Shown here: one piece after another, positions 9,025-33,172 of the stretch
Numbering within the stretch: the first letter of the stretch is position 1
Layout of the letters: each line of letters starts with the position of its first letter
IMG/VR virus record: IMGVR_UViG_3300009545_000290
Coordinates: 1 to 47,586 of that record
Origin: a virus
Length of the DNA: 47,586 nucleotides
Direction: 5' to 3' (one strand)
Notes under the pieces: model-generated
What the model was told of the DNA's origin: nothing
Databases searched by the model: none
What the model saw: only the letters and a program-made list of their open reading frames with translations
Translations under genes and position numbers: made by a program

Positions 9025-9029
9025 GGAAC

Positions 9030-14877: not shown

Positions 14878-14880
14878 GCC

Positions 14881-14932: not shown

Positions 14933-14966
14933 CGGCCGCGTTCGACCTGTTGTACCCGGAGGGGCC

Positions 14967-15419
14967 ATGTTCATCAATGCTGCGGTGTACGAACGCTTGC
15001 TGGCGGATCTGGAAGCGCTCACGGAGACGCTGGCCGAAGAACGCCATCGGCACGATCTGCTGAGCGAACAAGCCAACCATCAACTCGCGATGGTCCGCCA
15101 GGATCTCGGGACCGAACGCGGCCGGCGCGAGATCCTCAGCCAACAGGCGGCGATCCAGAAATCGTTCCTCGACTTTCTGTGTTCCCGCGTCAATCAATTG
15201 GAAACCGAGCGCGTGCTCTTGCTCCGCCAGCTCACGAATCTGGATCTCCCGACGCCGACGATTCGCCCGATCGACACGCCGCCGGCCGCCGCGCCAGGAG
15301 ACGGCTTCGCCGACCTGTCGATCTTCGACGACGATGCCCGGCACGCGCCGGCCGGCTGGCATCCTGACGGCACCGTCAACTACGGCACGCCCGCGCCGAC
15401 TGGCGGGATGTCGTCATGA
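14967..15419 (+). CDS. Coiled-coil protein upstream of portal
   Basis: A 150 aa protein. Residues about 5-90 form a long coiled coil (LLADLEALTETLAEERHRHD, SQQAAIQKSFLDFL, NQLETERVLLLRQL); the C-terminal 50 residues are acidic, Pro/Gly-rich and probably disordered. CGGAGGGG precedes the ATG. It overlaps the portal gene as ATGA. A small head-assembly or packaging role is conceivable. Confidence 0.75.
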   Translation: MFINAAVYERLLADLEALTETLAEERHRHDLLSEQANHQLAMVRQDLGTERGRREILSQQAAIQKSFLDFLCSRVNQLETERVLLLRQLTNLDLPTPTIRPIDTPPAAAPGDGFADLSIFDDDARHAPAGWHPDGTVNYGTPAPTGGMSS

Positions 15420-17888: not shown

Positions 17889-18410
17889 ATGTTGACATCC
17901 GCGGTGGACGTGTTGGCGAACAAGCTCCTGCCCACCAATTCCATGTTCTCTCCGGAAGCCCTCGAACGCGCCGCCCGCGGCGTGAAACCGGACGCGGAGG
18001 ACGCGAGCGACGTGGATCCGCAACTGGCGCAACTGCCGTCGATGGCGACGGCGCCGAACACGTCCGCGACAAGCTGGGCGCCGACGCCGCCGCCGGTGAA
18101 GGGCCGTCTCGACCCGCTGTCGATCGCGGCGCTCGTCGGCGGGCAAGCGATGGATGTCGGATCCTCCATTCAGCAGTTCGGACGCGGCAACATCGAGTCG
18201 AATCCGATGTACTCGTGGATGGGCGAGCGTCCGTCCGCGGGCCTGACGGCGATGAAGGCGCTGCAAACGGCGCTCGCGGTGCGCGCCATGAAAAAGCTGG
18301 CGGACTCGGGGCATCCGACCGCGGCGAAGGTGGTCGGCTATCTGGGCGGCGCCGCGGGCGCCGCCGCCGGCATGTACAACATGACGCGCCCCAATCCACA
18401 GGACAAGTGA
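17889..18410 (+). CDS. Probable membrane-associated virion protein
   Basis: A 173 aa protein with a GAGGAGG ribosome-binding site. The first 75 residues are polar and Pro-rich. The C-terminal half has two moderately hydrophobic helices (LSIAALVGGQAMDVGSS and VVGYLGGAAGAAAGMYN) with small-residue spacing that suits membrane insertion. It could be a minor virion protein, but it has no recognised family. Confidence 0.7.
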   Translation: MLTSAVDVLANKLLPTNSMFSPEALERAARGVKPDAEDASDVDPQLAQLPSMATAPNTSATSWAPTPPPVKGRLDPLSIAALVGGQAMDVGSSIQQFGRGNIESNPMYSWMGERPSAGLTAMKALQTALAVRAMKKLADSGHPTAAKVVGYLGGAAGAAAGMYNMTRPNPQDK

Positions 18411-18964
18411 TGTTGTTGCTGGTATCCGGGGCCACGCGGACGGCGCGCACGGATACAGTCGGTCATCTGATCGTCCCGAAGCAATGGAACGATCCCGCGG
18501 CGTTGCAGCTCCAGGCCGGGCGTTGGGCGGTGGACAATGGCGCGTTCAGCGGGTGTCTGTTCGTCTCCGCGCCGGATGTCGTGGCCGATGCCGCCGCCAC
18601 GCTGCGCCGCTGGCCGTTCTGGGCGCGGCTGATTCGCGGGCTGGGGTTCCCTCCGGCGTTTGTCGCGCAAGACGGCCTGTCGGCCGACCGCGTGCCGTGG
18701 GCCGACATGGGCGCCTTGTTCATCGGCGGGTCGACCGACTACAAAGAGTCCGCCGACGTGCGCTCGCTGATGGCCTACGCGAAGGCGAAAGGGATCTGGA
18801 CGCATTGGGGCCGCGTCAATGGCAAGCGGCGGTACGAGATGGCGCTGAAGGCCGGCTGTGACTCGTTCGATGGATCCGGCTTCTCGAAGTGGCCCGATAC
18901 GAACGTCCCCCTGGTCGACGTGTGGGACGCCGAGATTCAGCAGCAACCGGAGTTGTTCCTCTGA
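18410..18964 (+). CDS. TGT/DpdA-like DNA or tRNA base-exchange enzyme
   Basis: A 184 aa protein. WAVDNGAFSG (D42), SAPDVVADAAATL, FVAQDGL, LFIGGSTDYK, HWGRVNGKRRY and GCDSFDGSGF (D151/D154) resemble phage proteins related to tRNA-guanine transglycosylase, some annotated queuine tRNA-ribosyltransferase or DpdA. DpdA enzymes exchange guanine for a 7-deazaguanine in phage DNA. D42 and D151/D154 would correspond to the catalytic acids. DNGAFSG runs straight into CLFVSAPDVV; from memory homologues have about 15-20 more residues here, so a small deletion is possible. No preQ0 synthesis gene is visible, so precursor would come from the host. Confidence 0.7.
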   Translation: MLLLVSGATRTARTDTVGHLIVPKQWNDPAALQLQAGRWAVDNGAFSGCLFVSAPDVVADAAATLRRWPFWARLIRGLGFPPAFVAQDGLSADRVPWADMGALFIGGSTDYKESADVRSLMAYAKAKGIWTHWGRVNGKRRYEMALKAGCDSFDGSGFSKWPDTNVPLVDVWDAEIQQQPELFL

Positions 18965-19326
18965 TGCCGTTCGCCAACGTCGAACACCGGCGGGCGTATC
19001 AGCGGGCGTACTATCGGCCGCGCATGCGGGCGCGCTGGCGGCGGTACCGGGCCGCCGGGGGCTGTGGCGAATGCGGCGAGCCGAGCGGAAAATTTGCACG
19101 GTGCTTCCGCCATCGGCTCCGGCTGGCGGATTGGAAACGGAAACGACGCCGGACCTGGAACCGGCCACGATCGCCCGCGCCTGGTGGCACCCTGGTGCGG
19201 GCGAGGCGGACCGGGCGGGAGAGCTGCCCCCCGCGCGACAATTCCGCCGTGCGGATCTGTCCCGCCCGATCCGTCTGTCGCCTTCGTGACATACCCGAGC
19301 TTGCATCAGTTCAGGTACAGGCGTAG
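18964..19326 (+). CDS. Small Arg-rich protein with a CGECGE zinc motif
   Basis: A 120 aa protein from the ATG at 18964 (TGATG coupling). The sequence YQRAYYRPRMRARWRRYRAA, then CGECGE and a later Cys/His (CFRH), resembles small phage zinc-finger proteins with a YxRxYY basic helix. The C-terminal 45 residues are low-complexity and could be a frame extension. Nucleic-acid binding is likely. Confidence 0.65.
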   Translation: MPFANVEHRRAYQRAYYRPRMRARWRRYRAAGGCGECGEPSGKFARCFRHRLRLADWKRKRRRTWNRPRSPAPGGTLVRARRTGRESCPPRDNSAVRICPARSVCRLRDIPELASVQVQA

Positions 19327-19376
19327 GCTGATCGCCAAACCGACGTACGACAAGTGCTCTGCTTGACAAAGTTTTC

Positions 19377-19436
19377 CACGTAACACCCGACCCGCCCCCG
19401 CGTAAGACCCTGACCGCGATCGACCGCGTAAGACAT
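19377..19436 (+). promoter_or_regulatory. Triple CGYGTAASACCC motif upstream of scaffold/capsid
   Basis: Three direct copies, CACGTAACACCC (19377-19388), CGCGTAAGACCC (19399-19410) and CGCGTAAGACAT (19425-19436), occupy most of the 121-base gap before the 19448 start, at intervals of 22 and 26 bp. TTGACA at 19363 is a possible -35, but no -10 lies 16-18 bases beyond it. These are probably control sites for the scaffold/capsid genes. Confidence 0.55.
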
Positions 19437-19447
19437 CAGGACACCTT

Positions 19448-20392
19448 ATGTTCAATAGATTCCTCTCGCGTTTCACTGGATCGATCTCGAACGGACTGTT
19501 GTTTGCGGCCGGCGACGGCGGCAGTGGCGGCGGCGCCCCTGCTGGTGGCGATCCCGGTGGCACCCAGCCGCCCGCCGGGACCCAACCGCCCGCTGGCACT
19601 CAACCGCCCGCCGGGACCCAGCCGCCCGCCGGCACGACGCCGCCGGCCGGCACGACGCAGCCGCCCGCTGGTCAGTACGTTTACCCCGAAGATCGCTCTG
19701 CCTGGATCCCGCCGGAGAAATATAAGAAATCCGAAACGCTGATCAATCGGACCGCGTCCGACATCGAGCGTCTCCAGCGCGAGATCAAGGATCGCGACAA
19801 GAAACTCGCGGCACTCGTCGGCGCCACGCCGCCGAACGAAGACGAGGCGGAGGCCGAGAAGGTCGCCAACGCCTTCTACGCGTTGCCGCAGTTCGCCCAC
19901 CTGAAAGGCATCACGCCCGAATGGTTGGCGTCGGTGAAAGCCCTGGTCGATGAAGGCGCGACGCTCACCGAGGCGCGCGACCACATCTACAACCAACAGG
20001 CGGATCGCTTCCTCGAATCGCTCGACTCGCGGTTCGCGGAGGAGATCGGTGCGACGACGCTCACACCGGGTCAGGCGCGCAAGCTGCGCGCGGCGTTCGG
20101 CGCGTCGATGCCCGACAGGCGCGAGGACCCGGACGGGTTTGCGAAATTTCAAGCGCGTTATAACCGCGGGGACGAAACGCTGATCGACGAATTCGTCAAA
20201 GAGTACGTCGGCGACATGCTCGAACCCGCCCGCCGACAAGCGACCGTCCCCCTTGCACAACGGCACGTCGTCCCGCGCGGCGGACGCACCGTCCCCGTCG
20301 TGCAGGCGCCAGAAAAACCCGATTACTCCAAATTGTCCGTCAGAGAAATGCTCGACCAGGCCGAAAAAGAGGCGGAGCGCCTCGGCCGATGA
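19448..20392 (+). CDS. Probable scaffolding protein with Pro-rich repeat
   Basis: A 314 aa protein just upstream of the capsid candidate. Residues 39-75 are a TQPPAG repeat. After YPEDRSAWIPPEKYKK comes a coiled-coil region (ASDIERLQREIKDRDKKLAA) and a largely helical, charged remainder ending SVREMLDQAEKEAERLGR. Size, position before the capsid, coiled coil and disorder fit a head scaffolding protein. No protease motif is seen. Confidence 0.65.
   Translation: MFNRFLSRFTGSISNGLLFAAGDGGSGGGAPAGGDPGGTQPPAGTQPPAGTQPPAGTQPPAGTTPPAGTTQPPAGQYVYPEDRSAWIPPEKYKKSETLINRTASDIERLQREIKDRDKKLAALVGATPPNEDEAEAEKVANAFYALPQFAHLKGITPEWLASVKALVDEGATLTEARDHIYNQQADRFLESLDSRFAEEIGATTLTPGQARKLRAAFGASMPDRREDPDGFAKFQARYNRGDETLIDEFVKEYVGDMLEPARRQATVPLAQRHVVPRGGRTVPVVQAPEKPDYSKLSVREMLDQAEKEAERLGR
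19562..19672 (+). repeat. 18-bp tandem repeat encoding TQPPAG
   Basis: About six units of an 18-base repeat (ACCCAGCCGCCCGCCGGG and variants) encode TQPPAG four times, then two divergent copies (TTPPAG, TTQPPAG). The unit number may vary between related phages. It forms a flexible proline hinge in the scaffold candidate. Confidence 0.8.
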
Positions 20393-20438
20393 TCGCTCGC
20401 GTTTCCTCTCTCGGGCTTGTGGAGCGAGGAACACGCCC

Positions 20439-21845
20439 ATGCAGTTGTTTTTCTACACCGGAATTCGCCGCGTCGGCGATTTCCTGTCTCACCTGAGTCA
20501 ATCGCCCGACGGCCTGCTGTGGGCCGGTCCCGGTTCTGATTCGGCGACGGAGGACGGCCTCCTCAAGAACACGTACGAAGACGTGATCGCCGAAGGCGTG
20601 CTGAAAAAGTTTCAGCTCCGCGACGCGTTCAAGCTGAAAGACAGCCCGTGGGATGGCGGACGCGGCAAGGAATGGTCCGCCCACGTCGAACGCAACAACT
20701 CGCCGATGGCGGTCGGATCCGATTCGGCCATTCCCGTGGCCGACAATCAGAAGTACATCACCGGCTTCATCAGCCAGAAAAAGATCATGGCGCGGTGGCG
20801 CGTCACCAACGAACAACTCGACGACACGCAGTCGCGCGAGGGGTCGTACCGCAGCTCGCGCACCGAGAACATGGAGCGCCTGATCGACGACATCAGCTAC
20901 CGCGAGGAGTTTTACCTCGGGACCGATGGCCGCGGCGTCTTCGGCATCGTCGATGCGACCTCCGCCGCCGCGCAAGTGGAGCTGAACAGCCCCGGCAACA
21001 TCTCGTCGGCCGGCGTCGCGATCACGTCCGCCTTCGGCAACCGCTACATCAAGAAAGGCATGGCGGTCGCCGCGATCAATCCGACCACCGGCGCCATTCG
21101 GGCGAACACGCCCAAGGTGACCGCGGTCAACAGCGACGGGACCGACTTCACCGCGAGCCTCGCGCCGGGCTGGACGACGGGCGACTACGTCGTCCAGGCG
21201 GCCAATACCGGCGTTACCGACGTGGTCGACACGGCGTACGAGAAAGCGCCGTGGGGGCTGACCGCGCTGATCGACGACGGCACCTACCGCCAGAACTATT
21301 TCGGCGTCGACCGCTCGCTCTGGACGAACTATCAGTCGTACGTGTCGGCGAACACGGGCGCGCTGTCGTTCGATCTCCTCCAGCGCGTGTCGGACATCGT
21401 CAACCAAAAACTCGATGGGGAAATTGACGCGATCTGGTCGCATCACTCGGTCCGTCGTGTGTACATCCTCCTGACGCAAGCCGATCGCCGCTATGCGGAC
21501 GCCGCCAGCCGGCGGAATCCGGACGGCGGCACGGCCGCGTTCCAGCAGGAAGATCTGACCATGGGCGCGGTCGCCTACAAAGCGATCCGCACGCTCGGCC
21601 TCCGGCAAATGTTCCTGGTCGACACGAAGGGCGGCGACTTCGTGCGCTACACCAGCGAAAAAGGCAAGTGGGTGTCGGGCTCCAGCGGCGAGATCCTCGT
21701 GCGTGACGGCACGGGCGTCAACGCGCGGCACGCCTGGGAGGCGTGGTACTACAAGAGATATCAGTTGTTTTGCAGAAACCCTGGCAAGTGCGCGCGGCTC
21801 GATGCGCTCACCGGCATGACCTTCGTGGTGGTGCGCGGGGAATAG
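20439..21845 (+). CDS. Major capsid protein candidate
   Basis: A 468 aa protein with a strong GGAGCGAGGAA ribosome-binding site and the expected position after the scaffold. Mixed alpha/beta sequence (YEDVIAEGVLKKFQLRDAFK, KKIMARWRVTNEQLDDTQSR, FVRYTSEKGKWVSGSSGEIL) and a C-terminal WYYKRYQLFCRNPGKCARLD are typical of HK97-fold coat proteins. A sandwich-like stretch (AAINPTTGAIRANTPKVTAV) around residues 210-260 may be an insertion domain. The call rests mainly on order and size. Confidence 0.7.
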   Translation: MQLFFYTGIRRVGDFLSHLSQSPDGLLWAGPGSDSATEDGLLKNTYEDVIAEGVLKKFQLRDAFKLKDSPWDGGRGKEWSAHVERNNSPMAVGSDSAIPVADNQKYITGFISQKKIMARWRVTNEQLDDTQSREGSYRSSRTENMERLIDDISYREEFYLGTDGRGVFGIVDATSAAAQVELNSPGNISSAGVAITSAFGNRYIKKGMAVAAINPTTGAIRANTPKVTAVNSDGTDFTASLAPGWTTGDYVVQAANTGVTDVVDTAYEKAPWGLTALIDDGTYRQNYFGVDRSLWTNYQSYVSANTGALSFDLLQRVSDIVNQKLDGEIDAIWSHHSVRRVYILLTQADRRYADAASRRNPDGGTAAFQQEDLTMGAVAYKAIRTLGLRQMFLVDTKGGDFVRYTSEKGKWVSGSSGEILVRDGTGVNARHAWEAWYYKRYQLFCRNPGKCARLDALTGMTFVVVRGE

Positions 21846-21985
21846 TAACACAAGTTCGCCGGAGCCTGACTCGGGCCGCCTGATCCAAAGGGGTAATCCT
21901 CCGGAGTTAATTCCCTTGGCCCGCGATCACCTTGGAGGAACGACCTCCCGGTCAGCTCCGGCGGAAGAAAAGGACGCGTTAGAAC
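21846..21985 (+). promoter_or_regulatory. Post-capsid intergenic region with alternative hairpins
   Basis: CCGGAG at 21859-21864 can pair with CTCCGG at 21899-21904; CCGGAG at 21901-21906 can instead pair with CTCCGG at 21956-21961. GGAGG-AACGA-CCTCC at 21934-21948 forms a further small hairpin. There is no T run, so this is not a standard terminator. It may tune mRNA stability or expression after the capsid gene. Confidence 0.4.
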
Positions 21986-22459
21986 ATGGCTCAGTTCGGC
22001 GACAACGTCACGTTAGTCAATCGGACCAGCAAGTCGATCCTCACCGCGACGTGGGACGGGATGCACTACCACTTCGAGCCGGGCGCCCATCCGAACGTCC
22101 CGCGCGAGATCGCGATTGCGGCGTACAAGCAGAATCCGATTCACGGCACGGAGGATCCGCTCGGCGACCCCGACATCATCGAATCGTTGATCGGGATCGT
22201 CGGCCTGAAATATCCGTTCGGGAACGTGACGCCGATCGAGCAGAGCAAGGCCGGCGAGCGGCTCGATCGGCGCCGGGTGATGGGCCTCGGGACCGCGGCG
22301 ACGCCGATCGATGCCGGCGGTCCGTCGTACTTCGACGCGAAGATGGGGACCGAGAAAGTCGATCTCCAGGACGATGCCGACGCCGGCAGCAACAACGCCC
22401 CGGCGCCGCCCGAGCCGCCCGCGGCGGCCACGACGACCGGCGGCCGTGCGCGGCGGTGA
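21986..22459 (+). CDS. Head-associated protein, function unknown
   Basis: A 157 aa protein. The N-terminal 100 residues (FGDNVTLVNRTSKSILTATW, HFEPGAHPNVPREIAIAAYK) look like a compact beta domain found after the capsid gene in many phages. The C-terminal 40 residues are Ala/Pro-rich and disordered. AAAGGA precedes the ATG. It is probably a minor head or connector component. Confidence 0.7.
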   Translation: MAQFGDNVTLVNRTSKSILTATWDGMHYHFEPGAHPNVPREIAIAAYKQNPIHGTEDPLGDPDIIESLIGIVGLKYPFGNVTPIEQSKAGERLDRRRVMGLGTAATPIDAGGPSYFDAKMGTEKVDLQDDADAGSNNAPAPPEPPAAATTTGGRARR

Positions 22460-22462
22460 GCC

Positions 22463-23053
22463 ATGACTGAGTTGGGCGAGATTTACATTCCGGATCTGAA
22501 CCCCTTCAACCTGGAAGCGCCGCCGCTCTGGTGGCAACAAGGGTTGTGGGCCTTCGATCACGACATCCGGATCTTGCCCGGCCGCAAGCGGCCCGTGTTT
22601 CATCTCGCGCGTGTCAAAAAGTACAGCCGCGGCCTGACCGGCGCCGCGATCGTCGACGACCAGAACGACACGGCCATGTTCGTGCGGTATGACCTGGTCC
22701 CGGTGACCTGGATTTGCAGCATGGAGGGATGGTCCGAGGGGTTTTTGCAGTACATCGTCGGCGAGCTGATCGAGCGCGACACCTGGGCGATCGAAGGCGG
22801 TCCGCTCACCGAAGACCTGATGCGTAAGGCCATGTTTGAAGGCGGCAGCAAGTACGGCAAAGCGCTCGACCAGCGCGACGCGGACGATCGCGCGCAGATC
22901 GATCGCGACGTTCACGACGACGTGTACCACGCCACCGGCGAGGCCTGGCGCTCGCTCCAGGCGCGCACCGGCGAACGCATCCTGAACGCCGGCCGCCCGT
23001 CCGACTTGCCGCTGCGCGTCACCGACGAATCGCATTTGAAAGGAACTGACTAA
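22463..23053 (+). CDS. Structural-module protein, function unknown
   Basis: A 196 aa protein (MTELGEIYIPDLNPFNLEAP) with Trp-rich strands (LWWQQGLWAFDHDIRILPG, TWICSMEGWSEGFLQYIVGE) and a charged helical C-terminus. It ends with a TAATG overlap with the next gene. It may be a head-completion protein. Confidence 0.7.
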   Translation: MTELGEIYIPDLNPFNLEAPPLWWQQGLWAFDHDIRILPGRKRPVFHLARVKKYSRGLTGAAIVDDQNDTAMFVRYDLVPVTWICSMEGWSEGFLQYIVGELIERDTWAIEGGPLTEDLMRKAMFEGGSKYGKALDQRDADDRAQIDRDVHDDVYHATGEAWRSLQARTGERILNAGRPSDLPLRVTDESHLKGTD

Positions 23054-23601
23054 TGGCTGTTCTTCCCGCACTCCCCGCGCTCGAAGCGGAAGCGCTCACC
23101 TGGCAACGCGTCGACATCGCGCTGGCGGGCGCCTCGCCCGGTGCGCAGTTCGCGTTTCAGGCGCTCAAAAAGTGGCTGGCGCAACAGAAGTCGTGCCCGG
23201 ATCTCCGGTTCACGCAATTGCCCAACAACACCGTGACCCCGTTCGGTCTGATCACGGCGGCCAACGGCGGCCAGTACGGCGCGACGACGACTGCGCGGCT
23301 CTTTGCGATCTACATCCGCAAGACGAACGTGGCCGGCTCGGTGACCGCGTCGTACCTGAAGCTGTTCGATGAAGGCACCGACGCCGCGATCTCGGGCCTG
23401 ACCGCGAACAGCCGGCTCGTGATCCCGCTCGGCGCGGTGAGCAGCGGCAACCCCGGCTTGCTCCAGGAGGGGATCTATCTCTCGCCGAACGGCTTCCCGC
23501 TGGCGGCTGGCCTCCGCCTGGCGCTCGTGACGTTGGCGGACACGTTCACGATCTCGGCCGCGGCAGACGGCGGCGACGGGTTCTGTCTCACCACGCCGTA
23601 A
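23053..23601 (+). CDS. Beta-rich structural protein
   Basis: A 182 aa protein, mostly beta-predicted (VTPFGLITAANGGQYGATTT, LFAIYIRKTNVAGSVTAS, LRLALVTLADTFTISAAA). It is probably a decoration or tail component. The stop codon lies in the loop of a short hairpin (ACGCCG/CGGCGT, 23593-23611) that also contains GTAACACCC. Confidence 0.7.
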   Translation: MAVLPALPALEAEALTWQRVDIALAGASPGAQFAFQALKKWLAQQKSCPDLRFTQLPNNTVTPFGLITAANGGQYGATTTARLFAIYIRKTNVAGSVTASYLKLFDEGTDAAISGLTANSRLVIPLGAVSSGNPGLLQEGIYLSPNGFPLAAGLRLALVTLADTFTISAAADGGDGFCLTTP

Positions 23602-23611
23602 CACCCGGCGT
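23593..23611 (+). promoter_or_regulatory. Hairpin containing GTAACACCC after the 23601 stop
   Basis: ACGCCG-TAACACC-CGGCGT forms a 6-bp stem around the stop codon of the upstream gene, and the loop holds the GTAACACCC core of the recurrent motif. Without a T run it is a weak terminator. It could equally be a motif copy for the next gene, 110 bases downstream. Confidence 0.35.
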
Positions 23612-23719
23612 CGGCTGACCGCCTGACAGGAGGCGTCCACACGTCACGGTCCTGGTTCCAGCATGGCGCGTGCGCCTGATCGGCACGCGCCCCACAGGAA
23701 CCCTACGGAGGAGTGCGTC

Positions 23720-24346
23720 ATGCCGACACGTCGTATTCAACGCGGCCCAGCGGCCGGCGGCCCGCCGGTCGGATTCCAAAACGCTCCGAGCTGGAACGAA
23801 GTCTATATCGATGGCCTGACGGATCAATTCATGGCCGGGACCGGCGTCGGCGGCGGCGTCGCGGGCGCCGCGCCCACGCTCCAGGCGCTGAATCCCGTCC
23901 AGACGCTGATGGCGGCGTTCGTCGAGGACGCGGTGACGCTCACGCACACGGCGACGTTTCCGATTCCCATCGGCGCCGTGCTCCTCGACATCGGCTTTCT
24001 GTCGACGGTCCTCTGGACCGGCGGCGGTACCGTCGTCCTGACAATCGGCGATGCCGCGGCGGCCAACGGCTGGTTTCTCGCGACGAACCTCAAGGCGACC
24101 GATCTCCTGGTCGGCGAACGCCTGACCGCGGCCAGCGCGGGCAATTGGGGCGGCCTCAATGGCGCGTACCTGACCGCCGCGGGACGCTTCGGCATGGTGG
24201 TGGCGCCGGCGATCGGCGGCCTCGTGTCGGCCGCCTACAACGTGATCATGGTCGTCACCGAAAGCGCGCCCTCGACCGCGGTCGGTCGGTCGTTCGGCTG
24301 GGTGACGTACGCGCTGCCGAATCCGATCGTGCCCGTCAAGGCCTGA
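23720..24346 (+). CDS. Beta-rich virion protein
   Basis: A 208 aa protein with a GGAGGAG ribosome-binding site. The basic, Pro/Gly N-terminus is followed by alternating hydrophobic strands (VTLTHTATFPIPIGAVLLDI, TVVLTIGDAAAANGWFLA, SAAYNVIMVVTESAPSTAV). It is possibly a tail or decoration protein. It overlaps the next gene by one base (TGATG). Confidence 0.7.
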   Translation: MPTRRIQRGPAAGGPPVGFQNAPSWNEVYIDGLTDQFMAGTGVGGGVAGAAPTLQALNPVQTLMAAFVEDAVTLTHTATFPIPIGAVLLDIGFLSTVLWTGGGTVVLTIGDAAAANGWFLATNLKATDLLVGERLTAASAGNWGGLNGAYLTAAGRFGMVVAPAIGGLVSAAYNVIMVVTESAPSTAVGRSFGWVTYALPNPIVPVKA

Positions 24347-25710
24347 TGTCGGATAGCTACTCGCGCAATCGGGAGCTGTTCGGGTCGGTGTCTGGCGCGT
24401 ACCGCGTGCTCGCGGCGGACACCGGCCTGATTACCCTTGCGGCGGCGCCGCTGCGATCGACGATCTTCGTCCAGAAGATCCACATCGAAGTGACGACCGG
24501 CGCCGGCTCCGAACTGTGGACGTTCCAGGACGGCAACGGGATCCCGCTCGTGCCGTCCGTGTCGGCCGCGGCCGTCGCCAATTTCGAGTTTGATTTCGGG
24601 CCGGACGGCGTCCCGTGCGCCGCAGCGACCGCGTTCGTGCTGAACGTCACGGGCGCGACGGGCGCGATCGGCTGGATCTCCTGGGAAGCGTTCCAAAAGA
24701 TCGTGCCGATGGTCGACTACGCGAGCCTGATCCTCGCCCTGGCGCCGCTCGGGTACTGGCGGTTCGAGGAAAGCGGCGGCAATGTCTTCGCCGACTCGTC
24801 GGGAAATTTCCACGACTTCAACGGCGGCGGCGCTGGCGGACCGGGCCAGAATTTGGCCGGCGTGCGATTCCGCCAGCCGAGCGATCTCCACGATGGGACG
24901 TTCGGCATTGCGACGAACCTGCCTGGCGGGTTGGGGACGTTCCCGATCACGATCACGGCGAGCCCGTCCGTCGTCGCGCCCACGGGCACGCTCACGGTAA
25001 CGTGGGCGGGGATCCCGGCGGGCCAGCAAGTCGCGACGAACTGGTTCACGCTGACGAAAGTCGGCCGCCCCATCGAGCAATATGTCGGCTGGAAGTACAT
25101 CACGGCCACCGGCGCCGGCAGCATGTCGATGCCGGTCAATAACAACGTCGGCGGCACGCCGGAGCCGGGCACCTACAATCTTCGCCTCCACTACGCGGAC
25201 GGCTGGAACCTCCTGCAAGTGATCCTCGGCCAGATCGTGATCTCGCCGACCGGACCGACGAGCGGCCTCGTGTCGTCGGCCTCGCCCGTACCCTTGGTGC
25301 TGGGAACGACCTGCACGATCGAATGTCGATTCGCGCTCCACGGCTTCAACGGCGCCAGCAACTACGCGTTCATCGTCGGCGATACCGCCTTGGGGCTGTA
25401 CCTGTTCCGCGGCGCCGGCCCGCTCTACTACGTTGATCTGTACTACGGCGGGGATCATCTCTCGAATGCGATCCTCCTCGACACAAAGTACTACCTCGCC
25501 GTCGTCTGCAACGCGGGCGCGGTGACGTTCTATCTGAACGGTGTGCCGGCGGGCACGGCCGCCGCGTGGCCGGGCGTGACGGTCGTGAGCCTGTTCAACA
25601 ATTTCTTTGCGGGCGTGCTCGGCGGCGTTGTCGACATCGACGAACTGGTGCTCTATGGGACGGCGCTCAGTCCGGCCGTCGTCGCCAACCACGCTACGTT
25701 CTGGACGTGA
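24346..25710 (+). CDS. Tail fibre or decoration protein: duplicated N-terminal domain plus LamG-like domain
   Basis: A 454 aa protein. Residues 1-120 form a beta domain nearly duplicated in the next gene. From PLGYWRFEESGGNVFADSSG (about 127) a LamG/concanavalin-like domain begins and finishes with DIDELVLYGTALSPAVVANH at the C-terminus. About residues 195-310 (ITASPSVVAPTGTLTVTWAG onward) look like an Ig-like insertion splitting it. LamG and Ig-like units on virions bind sugars, so a role in host attachment is likely. Confidence 0.7.
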   Translation: MSDSYSRNRELFGSVSGAYRVLAADTGLITLAAAPLRSTIFVQKIHIEVTTGAGSELWTFQDGNGIPLVPSVSAAAVANFEFDFGPDGVPCAAATAFVLNVTGATGAIGWISWEAFQKIVPMVDYASLILALAPLGYWRFEESGGNVFADSSGNFHDFNGGGAGGPGQNLAGVRFRQPSDLHDGTFGIATNLPGGLGTFPITITASPSVVAPTGTLTVTWAGIPAGQQVATNWFTLTKVGRPIEQYVGWKYITATGAGSMSMPVNNNVGGTPEPGTYNLRLHYADGWNLLQVILGQIVISPTGPTSGLVSSASPVPLVLGTTCTIECRFALHGFNGASNYAFIVGDTALGLYLFRGAGPLYYVDLYYGGDHLSNAILLDTKYYLAVVCNAGAVTFYLNGVPAGTAAAWPGVTVVSLFNNFFAGVLGGVVDIDELVLYGTALSPAVVANHATFWT

Positions 25711-25713
25711 TCC

Positions 25714-26106
25714 ATGACTGATCCCTATCAACGCAATCGCGACTTTTTCGGCACCGTCTCGGGCAACTATCGCGTCCAGGCGGTTGACACCGGCCTGATC
25801 ACGCTCGTGCCGCTGATTCTGTTGCAGACGATCTTTCTGCAAAAGCTGCACATCGAAGTCACGACGGTGACCGCCGCTGAATTGTGGACGTTCCAGGACG
25901 GCGCGGGCACGCCGATCCCGCTCGTGCCGAACGTGTCGGCCGCGGCCATTGCCCATTTCGATTTCGATTTCGGGCCGGACGGCGTGCCCTGCACCGAGGC
26001 GACGGCGTTGGTGCTGAACATCACGGGCGCGGTTGGCGCGATCGGTTGGATCACCTGGGAAGCGTTCAAAAAGCTCACGCGCGGCGCCGCGCCGAAGATC
26101 GGGTAA
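25714..26106 (+). CDS. Stand-alone paralogue of the 24346 N-terminal domain
   Basis: A 130 aa protein that aligns with residues 1-120 of the previous protein: RNRDFFGTVSGNYRVQAVDT versus RNRELFGSVSGAYRVLAADT, then HIEVTT, ELWTFQDG, FDFGPDGVPC and IGWITWEAFKK. About two thirds of positions match by eye. This is a tandem duplication in which only the first copy carries the LamG extension, so mixed oligomers of plain and LamG-bearing subunits are possible. Confidence 0.75.
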   Translation: MTDPYQRNRDFFGTVSGNYRVQAVDTGLITLVPLILLQTIFLQKLHIEVTTVTAAELWTFQDGAGTPIPLVPNVSAAAIAHFDFDFGPDGVPCTEATALVLNITGAVGAIGWITWEAFKKLTRGAAPKIG

Positions 26107-26396
26107 TGGCCAAAAGCACACGGCCGCGGCGTGCGCGCCCAGCGGCCGAACCAAAGGACGAACCGATGACTGAGCCCAAGGGGACCATGCTGGAGCTGGC
26201 CTCGAAGATCGACACCGCCGTGCGCGACGTAGAGACGCGACGGAAAGCCCTCGACGTGGCGACCGTCACGCTCGAAACCGCGACGCAGGAGTACAGCGCG
26301 GCCATCGCGACGGTTCACGCCTTGCACACGGAGTATCAGACGTTCATGGACAACGTGCTGAGCGTCGGCGGGACCGTCCATGTTGCGAAACCCTGA
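26106..26396 (+). CDS. Small coiled-coil protein
   Basis: A 96 aa protein from the ATG at 26106 (TAATG coupling). A basic, Pro/Arg-rich start is followed by a long helix (LELASKIDTAVRDVETRRKA, LETATQEYSAAIATVHALHT). An internal ATG at 26166 (MTEPKG) could be a second start. It may be a small virion or chaperone-like protein. Confidence 0.65.
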   Translation: MAKSTRPRRARPAAEPKDEPMTEPKGTMLELASKIDTAVRDVETRRKALDVATVTLETATQEYSAAIATVHALHTEYQTFMDNVLSVGGTVHVAKP

Positions 26397-26414
26397 TCCG
26401 CTGGAGGAGAGTCC

Positions 26415-26768
26415 ATGCCGACCGCGAGCGCCCGCACGCAAACGATCACGTTCACCGGCGACGTGACCGCGACGCAGACCAATGCCGCCCTCCAGAATCC
26501 GGCCAGTCCCGGTGTCAGTCAGTTGATCAACCTGGCCATCGGCTCGAACGTGATCGCCGCGCCGATCGGCGGCGCCACGCCCGTGGCCGTGACCATCGTG
26601 CCGCCGGCCGGCAACGTCGCGCCGATCACCTTGAAGGGGATCGCGGGCGATACCGGGATCGCGCTCCATCCGACCGACCCGTCCACGATCGCACTCGGGT
26701 CGGCCGTCGTGTCGTTCGTGCTGAACGCGGGCGGCGTGGTGACCGGCCTCCGGTTGATCTGGAGCTGA
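26415..26768 (+). CDS. Beta-rich small virion protein
   Basis: A 117 aa protein, nearly all beta-predicted (TQTITFTGDVTATQTNAALQ, VAVTIVPPAGNVAPITLKG), with a GGAGGAGAG ribosome-binding site. The repeated G-x-V/T strands resemble decoration or tail-fibre trimer domains. No specific family is identified. Confidence 0.7.
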   Translation: MPTASARTQTITFTGDVTATQTNAALQNPASPGVSQLINLAIGSNVIAAPIGGATPVAVTIVPPAGNVAPITLKGIAGDTGIALHPTDPSTIALGSAVVSFVLNAGGVVTGLRLIWS

Positions 26769-26769
26769 G

Positions 26770-27543
26770 ATGCCGACGCCCTTCAAGGCCATCATCGCGC
26801 GGACGCGGACGCAAATTCTCGCGCCGTTGGTGCAGACGGGCGCCATCAGTCCGGACACGTTCTACGCCGATACGGAGTTGCTCGATCACGCCATCGCCGG
26901 GGCGCGCGACCTCTGGCGCGCGTTGGTCGATCTCCACGAGGAGCACTTTCTCAAGGTCGACATCACGAACGTGTTTTACAAATCCGGCGACGAGGTGCTG
27001 ACCGGCGTGCCGCCGGACACGCTCCGCGTCCTGGCCATCATGCCGCGCGACACGTCGCAGGTGAGCGGCATCCGCACGCTGCGCTTCGTCCCGCGCAAGT
27101 ACACGTCGACCGATTTTCTGAACGCGCTCGGCCGGAGCGCGGTCGACGCCACCGGGCCGGCCGAAGTGTTCTATGCGGTGACCAACGCGGGCTCGCCGGT
27201 CGCGCCGCCGATCGTCTACATCGCGCCGAAACTCACGGCGACCGTGTTGCTGCGCTTCGTCTACGTGCCGACGCTGCCGGCGACCATGGACATGGAGACG
27301 ATGAATCCGATTCCCGGCGAGTCGGATCAGGCGCTCATGGCCTGGATCGCGTCGTTCGCGCTCGGCAAACAAAACGGCGAGAGCGGCGCGTTCGTGCCCG
27401 ACACGACCTGGCTCGCCGTCTACTCGACGGAGAAACAAGCGATCCTCACCATCAGTGAACCGCGTCAGGAACAGCAACCTGCCGTGATGGAGGGTGTATT
27501 CGACGAGTTGTTCGGCGGCGGCCTCTCGGGCGACGGGTGCTGA
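26770..27543 (+). CDS. Head-tail adaptor candidate (P22 gp4-like)
   Basis: A 257 aa protein. The helical N-terminus (RTRTQILAPLVQTGAISPDT, ELLDHAIAGARDLWRALVD) and the later ESDQALMAWIASFALGKQNG match the pattern of podovirus adaptor proteins related to P22 gp4. These bind the portal ring and extend the channel. Its location before the tail propeller proteins supports this. The family call is by pattern, not by a catalytic motif. Confidence 0.6.
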   Translation: MPTPFKAIIARTRTQILAPLVQTGAISPDTFYADTELLDHAIAGARDLWRALVDLHEEHFLKVDITNVFYKSGDEVLTGVPPDTLRVLAIMPRDTSQVSGIRTLRFVPRKYTSTDFLNALGRSAVDATGPAEVFYAVTNAGSPVAPPIVYIAPKLTATVLLRFVYVPTLPATMDMETMNPIPGESDQALMAWIASFALGKQNGESGAFVPDTTWLAVYSTEKQAILTISEPRQEQQPAVMEGVFDELFGGGLSGDGC

Positions 27544-27544
27544 C

Positions 27545-27823
27545 ATGGGCGAGATGAAGGTCTACGGGATCGGCAAGCTGGGCGTGAACGTGGATAGCGA
27601 TCCGTGGTCGATCGACGATCAGGAATGCGTCAAGCTGCAAAACGCGCTCAACAATCCGCTCGGCGTCCTGGTGAACCGGCCGGGGTTTGCGCCCGTCAAT
27701 CTGGAGGCGGCGCCGGGGGCGATCCTGGGCGGCGTCGGCGTGCCCGCGCTGGCCGGCAGTTCGGGCGGCGAAGGCGGCGGCACGCGGCTGATGTACATCG
27801 GCCGCGGACCGCTGAGCGAATAG
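27545..27823 (+). CDS. Small tail-anchor-like protein
   Basis: A 92 aa protein starting MGEMKVYGIGKLGVNVDSDP. The sequence SIDDQECVKLQNALNNPLGVLVNRPGF resembles the N-terminal segment of podovirus tail beta-propeller proteins, where it precedes the propeller. Here it is a separate gene ending RLMYIGRGPLSE, one base before the 1239 aa gene. It may be a detached anchoring module. Confidence 0.6.
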   Translation: MGEMKVYGIGKLGVNVDSDPWSIDDQECVKLQNALNNPLGVLVNRPGFAPVNLEAAPGAILGGVGVPALAGSSGGEGGGTRLMYIGRGPLSE

Positions 27824-27824
27824 T

Positions 27825-30800
27825 ATGCCGGCGATTTCCCCCTCGCCGATCCTGCTGAACTACATCATCTACACGACGAATACCGCGCTCGCGGCGGCGT
27901 GGATGGCGGCGAATCCCTCGGGCGTGCTGGCCGGTCCGGATCGCCTCGCGGCTTCGCAAGGGCTCACGGTCAACTACGCGGCGACCGCGCTCCCCGATCC
28001 TTCGGGCTGTTGGTTCTTTCCGGCGAACGATGGCGGCATTTTCTTTCCCGGCGATTTCGTTCACTTCGACAAAACCGTCGACTCCGGCTTCGTCGATCCG
28101 AACGATCTCAAAACGGACTACACGACCAATTGGGATCCCATCGAATACAAGTGGTGGGGCATCATCCTGCCGTACTACTTCACCGCGCCAGCCGGGGGCA
28201 GCTCGCTCCTGGCGCGTCGCTGGGCGTGCGGCTTCGAGTTGGGCGGCACGGGCAATGCGGGCCTCAACAACCTGAATAGTGCGTGCGGGCCGGCCGGCTC
28301 GCGGACGACGGACGGCTTCGGCTATACCGCGACACCAGGCGGCGGCGGCGACTTGGGGAAAACGACGACGCCGGTCGGCTCGGGGTTGCTGAATTCGTTC
28401 TGTTCGTGGGAACGGTTCTATTTCCGCCCGTGGGTGCTGCCGAATCAAGGGGAGTTGGCGATCTGGAGCGCCAACGACTCGCTCGAAGGGGTGACCGCCT
28501 GTTTTCTCGCGATCAACACGGCCGGCCAGCTCGTGTTCCGCAATTGGGGGAATTCCGGATCGCCGGGGACCGTCCTCGGGACCTCCGCGGCGCTCACCCT
28601 CGGCGCGTGGGTGAAGCTCGATCTCGTCGTCGCGTGGGCGCAGACCGGGCCGACCGCCGGGGTCATGAGTCTGATGATCAACGGGGTACTCGCGTTCAGC
28701 GGCTCGCAAGCCGGCGGGACCAGCGGGCTCGGCACGACGAACGCGAAACACACGCTGTCGACGATCGGCCCCGCGCAAACGGTCCCGGTCGGCGGGCTCA
28801 GTCCGACGAATCAGTACCGCTACGATGTCGACGACTGGATCAACGTCGCGATGGCGACGCCGTCGCTCCCGGCCACCGTCGATGTGCTGAACGGCACGCA
28901 CATCCGCCTGGTGAACGTCGCGGGCATCGCGGCGGCCGGCGCCTGGACGGGTGACTATCGCGGGCTCGCCGGCAACACGCCCGGCATCACGCCGCCGAAC
29001 CAAATCGCGGCGACCACGGCGAGCACGCAAATCATCTTCAACACGGACTACGTGAATCTGCCGCAATTGGGCATCGCGTCGATCCTCGTGCATTGCTGGC
29101 CGTCGACGTGGCCCGGCGGCCCGGCCATCGTCGGGTACCGCCTCAACGGCGGCGCGATCATCAAAAACACGAACGTCGGCCAGGCCGGCGCCGTGAACAA
29201 TTGGAGCGGCCAGATTTTTCAGGCCGGCGCGACGCCGGTCACCGACGTGACGACGCTCGACATCTCGCTCGATAAAGACGCGAGCGCGTCCTCGATGGGC
29301 ATCGCCGCCCTGTTCGCGGCCGTGGAGTGGATCGGCGTGTTCGGTCCGGAGGATGTGCCCGCCGGCAGTACGCCAGTGAAGACGCCCGTCCGCGCGGGCC
29401 TCCACAACGCGCCGTACCCGGAGATCGACGCCGTCACGTTCCCGTTGCAGTCGATGGCCTGGGCGTCGGCGCGGAGCGGGACCTATGTCGGCAACGGCAC
29501 CGGCCAGGACATCCCGGTCGGCGTGCCGTTTCACTGGCTGTGGATTCGCGTCGTCGGGACGACCAATTCGGATTACTGGTGGTCGTCACAATTCGCGCAC
29601 CATAACGCGCTCGGCGGCGGGTTCTCCGGGATCGATAGTCGGCTCCCGGTCGTGTCCCCGCCGAGTGGCGCCGCCACGGTGTTTCGCGTCAGCGGCAGCA
29701 ATGCGGCGACCAACCAGGTCGGCGTCACCTACGCGTGGGTCGCGTTCTCGGATCCGTCCAGTCGGTTCCTGCTGAATGGCGCCGTCGCCTGGACCCCGGC
29801 GACGGCGAGCGTGGCGAATCCGCTGCAAGATCCCGCGTTCACCCCGACGTGCGTCTTCACCGCGCAAGAGGATCTGTCCTCGGGGATCGCCGGCTTCTTC
29901 TACAAAGGGCCGGGGAATGCGACCGACACGGCCAATCCGCTGACCGGCGCGGACGTGGCGGCCGTCATGACGTTCGGCGCCGGGACGCTCACCACGAAAG
30001 CCGCCGCGCATTACCGCACGCCGCAGATGGCGTACGCGGCGTGGCGCACGGTCGATGCGACGGGCGCCTCGGGGCTGATCGATTGCGTGAGCTACACGGG
30101 GGACGGGCTCTCCTCGCGCAACATCGCCGTCAACCTCGGCGGCAATTCGCCGCTGTTCGCGTTCGGCATCGCGCACACGCTCGGTTCGTACTTCCGCGAT
30201 CCGGCGCACACCGGGCTCGACTCCAACGCGGTGACCGGCGGCATCGTCACCACGGCGATCATCGGCGGCGGCCTCAACTACGTGACGGTCGGCGCGCTCC
30301 TGAACGTCCTCGGCCGGACGTACGACATCTTCGTGATCGCCGGCGCGGGGTTCGCCGGGAGTTGGACGCCGAATCTCGATGGCGGCGGCAATCCGGTGAC
30401 GCCGCCGTGGCTGGCTCCGGCGCCGCCGCTGGGCGGGACCACGCCGCCCGTCCTGCCGCCCATCATTCCGCCGGTACCGCCGCCGCCGCATGGCTGGTGG
30501 CAGTCGGATGCCGGGTTCCGCGGCGACGTGGTCGCCATCGGCGATGCGCGGCCGGCGAATCCGCGATCGTGGAAAGACTTTGTCGGCTTCGCCGCGGGCT
30601 CGGCGGCCATGCTCGGCGGCTCGCCAGGCATCGCGGCGATCGTCCGCAACCACATGATCTACGCCGCGTCCAACTACGTGGTCGGGACCGACGCGCCGCC
30701 GATTCATATCTTCGACGGGTCCTACGATCGCCAACTCGCCACGCTGCCGCCGTCAGGCGCCGGGCCGGCGCACGGGGTCGTCTCGATCCTCGTGGCCAAC

Positions 30801-31544
30801 GGGACGATCTACGTGGCGACGTGGGACAGCGGGACCGACTCGACGACCTGGCTCGGGCGCGTCTTCTCGCTCGACATCGACTCGGCGACGCTCACGCCGA
30901 TCGGCGATGTGTTCCCGGTCGGCCATCTCCCGTACGCGCTCGCCTCCCTCAACAGTCAATTGTGGTGTGGCACGCACCGGCAGACTGCCGCCGCGCCGGG
31001 CAAAATCTTTTCGATTCGTCCGGGGATCGATGCGACGTGGACCGAGGATCACGATCTCACCGCGGAGAGTCTCGGCGGCGTCGCGGCACTCGCCGCATTC
31101 CAAGGGGCGCTCTACGTCGGCGCGACGGCGCCGGCCGCCACGTTCGGCCAGGTGCTCGCGCGGGCGGCTGATGGGACCTACAGCGTCGTCGACACGGGGA
31201 CGGGCGGCGCGGCCACCGCGAACAACGGCTATCTGGCCTTCGGCCTGTTCCTCGATGCGCTCTACGCGGCGTACTGGAACAACGACACGCCGGCCATTGC
31301 GAAGGTCCGCCGATCGGCAGATGGCGTCACCTGGACGACAGCGTACAGCGGCGCCGCGGGCACGCTCCGGCCGTTCCTCGCGCTCCCCGTCGATGCCGGG
31401 ATGCTCTATGCGATCGGCGGCGGCCTCGGGCTGACCGCGGCGATCGTCGGCACGTTCGACGGCGTCGCCTGGCTCAATCTCACCCCGCAATTGCCGGAGA
31501 CGGATCGGACCGCGCTCCCGGCGGTCGCCGTGGTGGTGCTCTGA
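27825..31544 (+). CDS. Large tail protein: lectin-like modules plus C-terminal propeller
   Basis: A 1239 aa protein, the largest in the window. Around residues 90-320 a concanavalin/LamG-like fold is suggested (YKWWGIILPYYFTAPAGGSS, WVKLDLVVAWAQTG, MSLMINGVLAFSG). The middle is beta-rich with Gly/Ala linkers. A polyproline hinge at about 858-892 leads to a C-terminal domain of repeated strands (FDGSYDRQLATLPPSG, TIYVATWDSG, LWCGTHRQ, GALYVGAT) typical of a beta-propeller. It is probably a tail spike or fibre with receptor-binding lectin modules. No sugar-cleaving motif is seen. Confidence 0.7.
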   Translation: MPAISPSPILLNYIIYTTNTALAAAWMAANPSGVLAGPDRLAASQGLTVNYAATALPDPSGCWFFPANDGGIFFPGDFVHFDKTVDSGFVDPNDLKTDYTTNWDPIEYKWWGIILPYYFTAPAGGSSLLARRWACGFELGGTGNAGLNNLNSACGPAGSRTTDGFGYTATPGGGGDLGKTTTPVGSGLLNSFCSWERFYFRPWVLPNQGELAIWSANDSLEGVTACFLAINTAGQLVFRNWGNSGSPGTVLGTSAALTLGAWVKLDLVVAWAQTGPTAGVMSLMINGVLAFSGSQAGGTSGLGTTNAKHTLSTIGPAQTVPVGGLSPTNQYRYDVDDWINVAMATPSLPATVDVLNGTHIRLVNVAGIAAAGAWTGDYRGLAGNTPGITPPNQIAATTASTQIIFNTDYVNLPQLGIASILVHCWPSTWPGGPAIVGYRLNGGAIIKNTNVGQAGAVNNWSGQIFQAGATPVTDVTTLDISLDKDASASSMGIAALFAAVEWIGVFGPEDVPAGSTPVKTPVRAGLHNAPYPEIDAVTFPLQSMAWASARSGTYVGNGTGQDIPVGVPFHWLWIRVVGTTNSDYWWSSQFAHHNALGGGFSGIDSRLPVVSPPSGAATVFRVSGSNAATNQVGVTYAWVAFSDPSSRFLLNGAVAWTPATASVANPLQDPAFTPTCVFTAQEDLSSGIAGFFYKGPGNATDTANPLTGADVAAVMTFGAGTLTTKAAAHYRTPQMAYAAWRTVDATGASGLIDCVSYTGDGLSSRNIAVNLGGNSPLFAFGIAHTLGSYFRDPAHTGLDSNAVTGGIVTTAIIGGGLNYVTVGALLNVLGRTYDIFVIAGAGFAGSWTPNLDGGGNPVTPPWLAPAPPLGGTTPPVLPPIIPPVPPPPHGWWQSDAGFRGDVVAIGDARPANPRSWKDFVGFAAGSAAMLGGSPGIAAIVRNHMIYAASNYVVGTDAPPIHIFDGSYDRQLATLPPSGAGPAHGVVSILVANGTIYVATWDSGTDSTTWLGRVFSLDIDSATLTPIGDVFPVGHLPYALASLNSQLWCGTHRQTAAAPGKIFSIRPGIDATWTEDHDLTAESLGGVAALAAFQGALYVGATAPAATFGQVLARAADGTYSVVDTGTGGAATANNGYLAFGLFLDALYAAYWNNDTPAIAKVRRSADGVTWTTAYSGAAGTLRPFLALPVDAGMLYAIGGGLGLTAAIVGTFDGVAWLNLTPQLPETDRTALPAVAVVVL

Positions 31545-33172
31545 TGTCCCTGACCCTGGTGCAAGCCGGCGCGACGTTGCAGTTCGTCGACGAGGCCGGC
31601 GTTCTGACGCCCGTGCCGTTGCCGACCGGCATCACGCTCCGCACGGATGTGCCGCCACGCTGGGAGGTGTACGGGCATTACGTGATCCTCGTCAACACGC
31701 CGAATCGGCCGATCACGATCGATGCGTCCGGCACCGTGCGCCCCCTGACGCCCTTGGCGCCCAGCCTCGCGCCCGTGCTCTCGGGGGTCCCCACGGGCAC
31801 CCTGAGCGGCACGTACAACCACGGGCGCTACACGTTCCTCATTCGCGCCGACGACGGCACCATCATCGCGGAAAGCGACTACTCGCCGGCTTCGAGTGCC
31901 GACGTGACGATCTCGACCGAAGATCTCCAGTACGCGGGCATCGACGTGTCGACGGAAGGGTCGGTCAATGCGCGACGCGCCTATCGCGTGACGGACGGCG
32001 GCTCGACGCTCTTTCAGTGGATCGATCTCGACGGCAACGTGCTCACGTCGGTGCAGGACGATTTGCCCGATGCGGCGCTGAGTCTCCTGGCCGCCTCTCC
32101 GGCGCTCGGTGCGCCGCCGCGGCTGACGTTGATCGCCGAAATCCGCGACCGGCTGTTCGGCGTCGGCGATCTGGACGTGGACACCGTGCGCTACACCGAG
32201 ACGGGCCTGATGTACGCGTGGCCGGCGCTCAACGCGCTGGCCATTCCGCGCACCGGCTCCGATCTGGTCGGCGTGACGGCGTTCCTGATGCGGCGGGAAG
32301 CGCTCGGCGTCGGCCGCCTCAATCGGCTCCTGGCGATCGTCGGCAGCGGCGAGGAGTCGGCGGACCAGAGTACGCTGATCGATTTCCGCGTGATCATCAT
32401 GAGTGATCAGTGCGGCGTGCTCTCGCAGGAAAGCGTCGTCGTCTATCGCGACAAGGCATATTTCTTGTGGCACGACGGCGTCTATCAGTGGGACGACTCC
32501 GGCATCGTCTGCCTCACCGATGGCATCGGCGGCCGGGGCCGCGTGCGCTCCTGGTTCACCACGCCGGATTATTTCGACGCCTCGCGCTTCTCGCGGGCCT
32601 TCGCGCAAATGGACACGACGCGCGCCAAGTACCGCCTGTTCCTGTGGGATCCGGCCGGCGTGCTGCATTTCATCGAATTCGATATCAAACAAAGCACCTG
32701 GGACGGTCCCCACCGGATCGACGCGTTCACGGCGACGAGCGCGTTTCTCCGCACGCTCGACAATGTGCCGGTCCCCACGGTCGGCGGCGGCGATGGCGGG
32801 ATCTACGATCAAGGCGTGCGGCCCACGGCGGCCGACGTGGCGATCAGCGGCCAGCGCTACGGGATCGACTACAACGTCGACAGCAAGTTCTATCCGGGCT
32901 CCAGTCCGGATCGCGAACAGTACTTCGGCCAACTCTCGATGCTCGGCGCCGTCCAGGCCGCCGGCACGCTGACGATCACGCCGAAAGTCGGTTACCTCGA
33001 TGCGCCCGCGCAAGCGCCGATCGCGTACGACATGCACCGCGGTCGACAGCGGCTCCGCCGGCTCGGCTTCGGCAAGCTGGCGCAGCTCAATCTCCGCCAT
33101 ACGAAGGTCGACGAACCCGTCGCGCTGTTCGGGTTCGAGATCGACGATGTCCACGAAGGGGGCCGGCGATGA
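31544..33172 (+). CDS. Tail beta-propeller/hub protein
   Basis: A 542 aa protein coupled to the previous gene by TGATG. It is nearly all beta, with repeats of the form YGHYVILVNTPNRPITIDAS, DRLFGVGDLDVDTVRYTETG, VVYRDKAYFLWHDGVYQWDD and YRLFLWDPAGVLHFIEFDI. This pattern is known from podovirus tail stabilisation or propeller proteins such as P22 gp10. The C-terminus (GQLSMLGAVQAAGTLTITPK) may bind the fibre. The exact role is inferred. Confidence 0.7.
   Translation: MSLTLVQAGATLQFVDEAGVLTPVPLPTGITLRTDVPPRWEVYGHYVILVNTPNRPITIDASGTVRPLTPLAPSLAPVLSGVPTGTLSGTYNHGRYTFLIRADDGTIIAESDYSPASSADVTISTEDLQYAGIDVSTEGSVNARRAYRVTDGGSTLFQWIDLDGNVLTSVQDDLPDAALSLLAASPALGAPPRLTLIAEIRDRLFGVGDLDVDTVRYTETGLMYAWPALNALAIPRTGSDLVGVTAFLMRREALGVGRLNRLLAIVGSGEESADQSTLIDFRVIIMSDQCGVLSQESVVVYRDKAYFLWHDGVYQWDDSGIVCLTDGIGGRGRVRSWFTTPDYFDASRFSRAFAQMDTTRAKYRLFLWDPAGVLHFIEFDIKQSTWDGPHRIDAFTATSAFLRTLDNVPVPTVGGGDGGIYDQGVRPTAADVAISGQRYGIDYNVDSKFYPGSSPDREQYFGQLSMLGAVQAAGTLTITPKVGYLDAPAQAPIAYDMHRGRQRLRRLGFGKLAQLNLRHTKVDEPVALFGFEIDDVHEGGRR

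Follow-up and report, generated by a model that had tools for sequence, protein, structure and literature searches.

The window analyzed here, the whole 47,586-base virus record IMGVR_UViG_3300009545_000290, contains two neighboring genes, one for a plain protein of 130 amino acids (aa) and one for an adorned protein of 454 aa, which begins with the same domain and continues into a LamG domain split by a nested insert. On balance, we favor the view that the plain protein is a capsid-surface decoration protein and the adorned one its adhesive paralogue, the two forming a mixed shell of mostly plain subunits. We read them in this way because of the fold matches of the plain protein, the position of the genes downstream of the capsid gene, and the faster protein change of the plain protein.

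All the genes of the locus lie on the plus strand. A portal-like gene (PHROG match, E 1.2e-10) and the gene for the major head protein are followed by genes of 157, 196, 182, 227, 454, 130, ∼96, 117, and 257 aa, with long genes downstream of the last. We place the major capsid protein at positions 20439-21845, the start codon being our choice; its PHROG match (E 3.9e-12) was scored on a longer frame, 20253-21842. The adorned gene (24346-25710) shares its first base with the final base of the 227-aa gene upstream (23663-24346), and three bases separate its stop from the start of the plain gene (25714-26106), whose own stop is overlapped by the start, deduced from the bases, of the ∼96-aa gene (26106-26396). 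The adorned and plain genes are two complete open reading frames, each with its own ATG. The upstream 227-aa protein and its counterparts in five relatives (L004, L005, L012, L013, and L043) have similar starts, and by eye the C-terminal parts seem to differ in several of them, as if the tip of this protein were exchanged as well. Among named phage records, the capsid protein of the window has one relative (MW202554, 31.6% identity), and at the megablast level the region 18000-33000 found no relatives there; searched against PDB sequences, the capsid protein matched no phage capsid.

We compared the two proteins with each other. The original prediction held that the 130-aa protein duplicates the N-terminal domain of the 454-aa protein, and this was borne out: over about 120 residues (the first 121 in the alignment), the two are 70% identical (BLASTP E 4e-59 in a single comparison), and the shared domain of the adorned copy, also matched by the family profile, is placed at residues 1 to 122 (24346-24711). 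The shared domains differ by a dS of 0.55 and a dN of 0.20, so that the pair is no copy artifact, and these values show that the shared domain is under purifying selection. Given the 70% identity, the N-terminal domain of the adorned copy is expected to adopt the same fold as the plain protein. The same pair occurs in IMGVR_UViG_3300005834_000064, which is identical to the window across all 16,380 bases compared and is therefore not independent evidence.

The remainder of the adorned protein was analyzed with LamG profiles. Pfam Laminin_G_3 matches residues 320 to 446 only (profile positions 16 to 150), with 27.8 bits for a cut-off of 27.6. A custom profile, built from 27 rows of phage LamG domains that were found via L005 (some rows repeat one contig and none comes from the window), matches in two pieces, namely, a front part at residues 124 to 189 (24715-24912; profile positions 1 to 63, with residues 172 to 189 aligned weakly) and a back part at residues 318 to 449 (25297-25692; positions 69 to 206). 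When the pieces are scored separately, the front one gives 25.6 bits (positions 1 to 45, residues 124 to 171) versus 4.1 for the best of 200 shuffles and the back one 34.0 bits versus 5.4 for the best of 200, and the stretch between them is without LamG signal (1.2 bits versus a shuffle best of 4.7). Because both pieces match the profile and the intervening stretch does not, the LamG domain is nearly complete, with a single interruption of ∼128 residues between profile positions 63 and 69. The LamG start and end motifs quoted in the original prediction are both present and parted by this insert, which covers about residues 190 to 317 (24913-25296) and has an uncertain front edge, somewhere in residues 171 to 190.

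The segment had also been called Ig-like. Its insertion stands on the profile scores; its Ig-like character goes no further than a low-confidence model and the fold matches of that model. The insert has no Pfam match, neither it nor the whole 454-aa protein has an NCBIfam match, tblastn against named phage records returned nothing for it, and its matches to PDB sequences are at chance level. The AlphaFold model of residues 123 to 454 is weak (pLDDT 52.7, pTM 0.42); its better regions are the insert and both ends of the LamG part, the remainder being mostly below 50. In this low-confidence model, the insert forms six strands within model residues 82 to 177 (block means of pLDDT 53 to 79), and this stretch aligns to Vpr chain 8jmw (Z 7.5, 96 residues, 3.0 Å) and to ScpA 7bj3 (Z 7.0, 104 residues, 2.9 Å), in both cases over what we take to be Ig/Fn3-like beta-sandwich domains. 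A beta-sandwich of the Ig/Fn3 type is thus possible for the insert, and a domain with a nested insertion can still have the LamG fold, but at a pLDDT of 52.7 the model is too weak to prove a nested fold. The front and back LamG parts of the same weak model, taken together, align to a large number of lectin-like beta-sandwiches, among them a pentraxin, binding modules of sialidases, and the binding portion of clostridial neurotoxins; we read these matches as the sharing of a common fold and nothing more, and we make no claim of a toxin. The end of the LamG domain has a weak match in Burkholderia phage FLC9 (27%, E 0.3).

The plain protein yielded a better model (pLDDT 82, pTM 0.75), a predicted beta-sandwich. 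Trimeric jelly-roll or Ig-like cement proteins of the Pam1, KHP30, and GP4 type have ∼110 to 160 residues and a single beta-sandwich, and the plain protein, with 130 aa, falls within this range, as do its single-copy relatives (121 to 143 aa). The top solved-structure match is the Pam1 capsid chain (Z 7.6, 105 residues, 3.4 Å), followed by the KHP40 trimeric cement protein (Z 7.5, 102 residues, 3.2 Å), with KHP30 (Z 6.8) and GP4 (Z 5.7) lower. Unrelated jelly rolls score close to these (nucleoplasmin, Z 7.1; BclA, Z 6.4), and because they follow so closely, the fold alone leaves the cement identity unsettled. Against predicted viral proteins, Foldseek gave 21 matches at E ≤ 0.001, and the named ones among the matches listed are uncharacterized phage proteins, small and large. 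The plain protein has no Pfam or NCBIfam match, only 2 of 40 domain members matched PHROG at E ≤ 0.01 (both to families with no assigned function), the plain protein and two distant members found no relatives among named phage records, and one pattern-based scan of bacterial and archaeal genomes detected no shared domain. A 40-row profile of the domain gave two chance-level matches to PDB sequences, neither of them a cement protein. Designed "Cake" proteins had been matched by a 9-row profile (E down to 5e-7); no stretch passed alone and they were absent with the 40-row profile, and we judged them repeat artifacts.

From the window to L009, the relative closest to it, the plain protein has a dN of 0.16 versus 0.02 for the capsid protein, with similar synonymous rates; it thus evolves faster than the capsid protein, as would be expected if it is exposed. 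The 182-aa neighbor, beta-rich by eye, is 93% identical between the same two phages versus 75% for the plain protein, and, tracking the capsid protein more closely, it could be the real or main cement protein. Homology between the plain protein and this neighbor was considered and rejected (profile comparison probability, 0.2%).

We then looked into the distribution of the shared domain. Direct searches with it gave six contigs, one of them the duplicate of the window. For a survey of the group, six aligned capsid proteins were used to scan for relatives, and the best 80 of 155 stretches were kept, making 81 sources with the window. An iterated domain profile, run on the plus strand only, found the domain in 48 of these 81 sources; L083, which is truncated at the end of its contig, and L113 were dropped from the count, leaving 46 loci in 36 clusters at 95% identity. 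The domain is a single gene of 121 to 143 aa, with script-chosen starts, in 41 of the 46 loci from the window and the best 80 of 155 stretches, so the plain single-copy form is the rule in this uncultivated phage group. In 5 of the 41, the contig ends within 1.5 kb, and these may therefore hide a second copy downstream. In every one of the 46 loci counted (again from the best 80 of 155 plus the window), the domain gene lies 1.4 to 4.8 kb downstream of the major capsid gene. The profile found no match in 33 of the 81 sources. In 24 of these, the stretch breaks off no more than 4 kb from the capsid gene, but the other nine loci, from eight contigs, extend 9 kb downstream of it and seemingly have no domain, so that the domain is not essential to the whole group. 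One 84-kb contig (IMGVR_UViG_3300010362_000012, holding L043 and L050) carries the capsid region twice in opposite orientations and is probably an assembly palindrome.

A placement in the neck or tail, with the shared domain as an appendage or fiber attachment and the LamG copy as a receptor-binding tip, is unlikely in our estimate yet deserves real weight. The slot lies between the capsid gene and the tail-side genes, three genes ahead of the 257-aa gene, which could be a head-tail adaptor (a guess that we base on the order of the genes; "structural protein," at E 0.2, is the one named function among its PHROG matches). LamG modules also occur fused to many different large phage proteins, and the Foldseek matches place similar domains in many uncharacterized proteins of both size classes. 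However, the two top solved-structure matches of the plain protein are capsid-surface proteins, and a small domain that stands alone, encoded once in 41 of 46 loci, is more easily reconciled with a lattice protein than with a fiber.

Within the window and the best 80 of 155 loci, a second, adorned copy was found in 4 of 36 clusters, and in all four (the window, L047, L100, and L112) it adjoins the plain copy. L047 is on the same contig as L005 and L011, and L112 is on the same contig as L013. The addition is LamG in three clusters and an internal insert in one: the adorned protein of L047 (544 aa) has two intact LamG domains, that of L100 (344 aa) has one (142.7 bits), and that of L112 (212 aa) has an insertion of ∼85 residues close to the last strand. 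The plain gene precedes the adorned one in L100 and follows it in the window, L047, and L112, and the partners are 70% identical in the window and 59, 60, and 62% identical in the other pairs. The L113 locus that was left out of the count encodes a 193-aa protein (13270-13848) that matches the plain-domain profile in its second half (E 4e-14); its first half looks unrelated, and it has no plain partner. It is possibly a distant, differently adorned relative, and, if a member of the group, it breaks the rule that adorned copies stand beside plain ones.

LamG genes were also sought beyond these pairs. Laminin_G_3 was searched in 48 virus records, several of them fragments (7 plus 45, 4 being common to both sets; the 45 were chosen from the records of 80 loci). 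Matches over the cut-off occurred in 6 of the 48 records, representing five distinct phages, and each of them lay within the decoration slot. Elsewhere, matches below the cut-off were found in the downstream long gene of the window and of L009 and in the record of L096. The LamG-like stretch of the window (28479-28727, in a 1239-aa protein encoded by 27825-31544) scores 22.8 bits, below the Pfam cut-off, and its L009 relative scores 17.7 bits. In L043 and L045, whose capsid proteins are 85 to 86% identical to that of the window, the shared domain was not found, and the slot (13742-15520 and 8672-9667, respectively) is filled by free-standing LamG proteins followed by a different protein of ∼105 aa; the free-standing frames have 483 codons with two LamG domains and 223 codons with one. 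The slot of L004 (4318-5001) holds an unrelated 227-aa protein directly before the plain gene, with no Pfam match over the cut-off and a weak sialyltransferase-like match (E 0.078). Many unrelated phage proteins carry a fused LamG module of this type (L016 to L029), with up to five in a row in L022 (3113-6766).

The ancestry of the adorned copies was evaluated with trees. In a tree of 41 rows, the partners of the L100 pair are sisters (92% support), as are those of the L013 pair (96%). A single origin was rejected both for all adorned copies together (p-AU 7e-9) and for the three that carry LamG (p-AU 2e-4), and a separate tree test rejected the adorned copies of the window, L005, and L013 as one group (p-AU 2e-4). 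Grouping the adorned copies of the window and L005 was not rejected (p-AU 0.335), nor was a sister relationship of the L005 pair (p-AU 0.153). Since the trees reject a common origin, the results point to at least three origins of adorned copies, bearing in mind that gene conversion between partners could imitate separate duplications.

The pair of the window had been described as recently diversified, and this part of the original prediction is not supported. In the trees, its plain copy groups by the plain copy of L009 and not by its own adorned partner; the window pair as sisters was disfavored and not rejected (p-AU 0.124, 0.221 with DNA, and 0.063 with the 41 rows). The window differs from L009 by a dS of 0.33 to 0.44 over seven genes and from L011, on the L005 contig, by 0.77 to 1.19. 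The dS of 0.55 within the pair lies below the latter range, but because it exceeds the divergence between the window and L009, a recent origin is unsupported. A recent tandem duplication within the window phage thus finds no support from dS or trees, although the sister pair is not formally rejected.

These results also bear on the idea that the adorned copy is an accidental fusion, made after tandem duplication beside a mobile LamG gene and with no selected role. Such a fusion could arise by chance, as free-standing LamG genes share the slot in L043 and L045, and the relatives L009 and L012 manage without an adorned copy. Still, the frame has stayed open, dN is lower than dS in the shared domain, and the trees support several origins, at least two of them of the LamG type, so we consider this explanation improbable.

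Translation signals give slight evidence that the plain protein is made in excess over the adorned one, because the predicted anti-Shine-Dalgarno pairing is stronger for the plain gene in all four pairs, one of them a near tie (−7.0 versus −2.8, −7.3 versus −5.3, −5.5 versus −5.3, and −5.6 versus −3.5 kcal/mol for plain versus adorned). The estimate presupposes a 16S tail of generic sequence, and the plain site of the window is not a classical one. That the two genes are instead alternatives, switching the surface coat per virion or growth condition, agrees with each copy having its own start codon and a complete shared domain, but genes three bases apart on one strand favor joint expression, which makes such a switch very improbable.

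We therefore return to the decoration reading. We infer that the plain protein would be the usual small cement-type decoration of the group, sitting on the head exterior, probably as a trimer. The adorned paralogue would anchor by the same domain and hold its LamG module outward, where it would bind sugars of the host surface, and the nested insert would be a further exposed module. Both proteins would be produced from the adjacent genes, with a probable excess of the plain one, giving a mostly plain shell with some adhesive subunits. A decoration layer of plain and adorned subunits, as had been predicted, agrees with the fold, with the gene position, and with the repeated pairing in relatives, and the pairing suggests how a shell could be given sticky subunits in limited number. 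More tentatively, and at less than even confidence, we propose that the decoration operon holds a dedicated exchange slot, in which duplications of the plain lattice protein recur and a lectin-type module is added to one of the copies, the gene pairing and the translation strength setting the adhesive share of the subunits on the head. The slot would then be a two-gene counterpart, with several origins, of the frameshift that doses tail subunits.

Known phages offer partial parallels. The SPP1 tail combines three plain subunits (gp17.1) with one extended subunit, the extension being dispensable (PMC8718954), and in lactococcal 936 phages some tail subunits are extended by modules suggested to bind carbohydrate (PMC6669499). 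The present pair likewise has a shared core domain and one form with an added module, here in a putative surface position. Unlike SPP1, in which one gene yields both forms of a tail tube protein by frameshift, there are two genes here, they probably serve the head, and LamG is the added module. The cement protein of GP4 is present in 540 copies, arranged as 180 trimers at the quasi-threefold axes (PMC9698820). The cement proteins of Pam1, KHP30/KHP40, and GP4 are similar to the plain protein in size and in its predicted beta-sandwich fold; they have no detectable sequence relationship to it, and the excerpts of their descriptions mention no LamG-carrying paralogue. For mycobacteriophage Douge, a virion surface covered with Ig-like domains reported to bind host glycans has been described (PMC13033339); there, the domains are parts of the major capsid and tail tube proteins, unlike the second decoration gene proposed here. 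Among the open-access papers listed in our searches, no title or abstract opening pointed to a phage decoration protein with a LamG-bearing paralogue.

T4 Hoc, which is dispensable, decorates the head of its phage, contains Ig-like domains, and is credited with a role in adhesion to surfaces. It differs from the present pair in being a single protein, located at the hexamer centers, that is not known to have a plain paralogue.

The domain defines a decoration-type family that the Pfam, NCBIfam, and PHROG libraries hardly recognize. Frameshifting is a known means by which phages dilute adhesive subunits with plain ones, and here gene duplication would do so. The group offers natural experiments, because its phages may be untagged, carry one or two intact LamG domains, carry a LamG interrupted by a nested insert, or have an insert of another kind. 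If the pairing by duplication evolved several times in one slot, this would suggest that selection favors mixed plain and adhesive surfaces as such.
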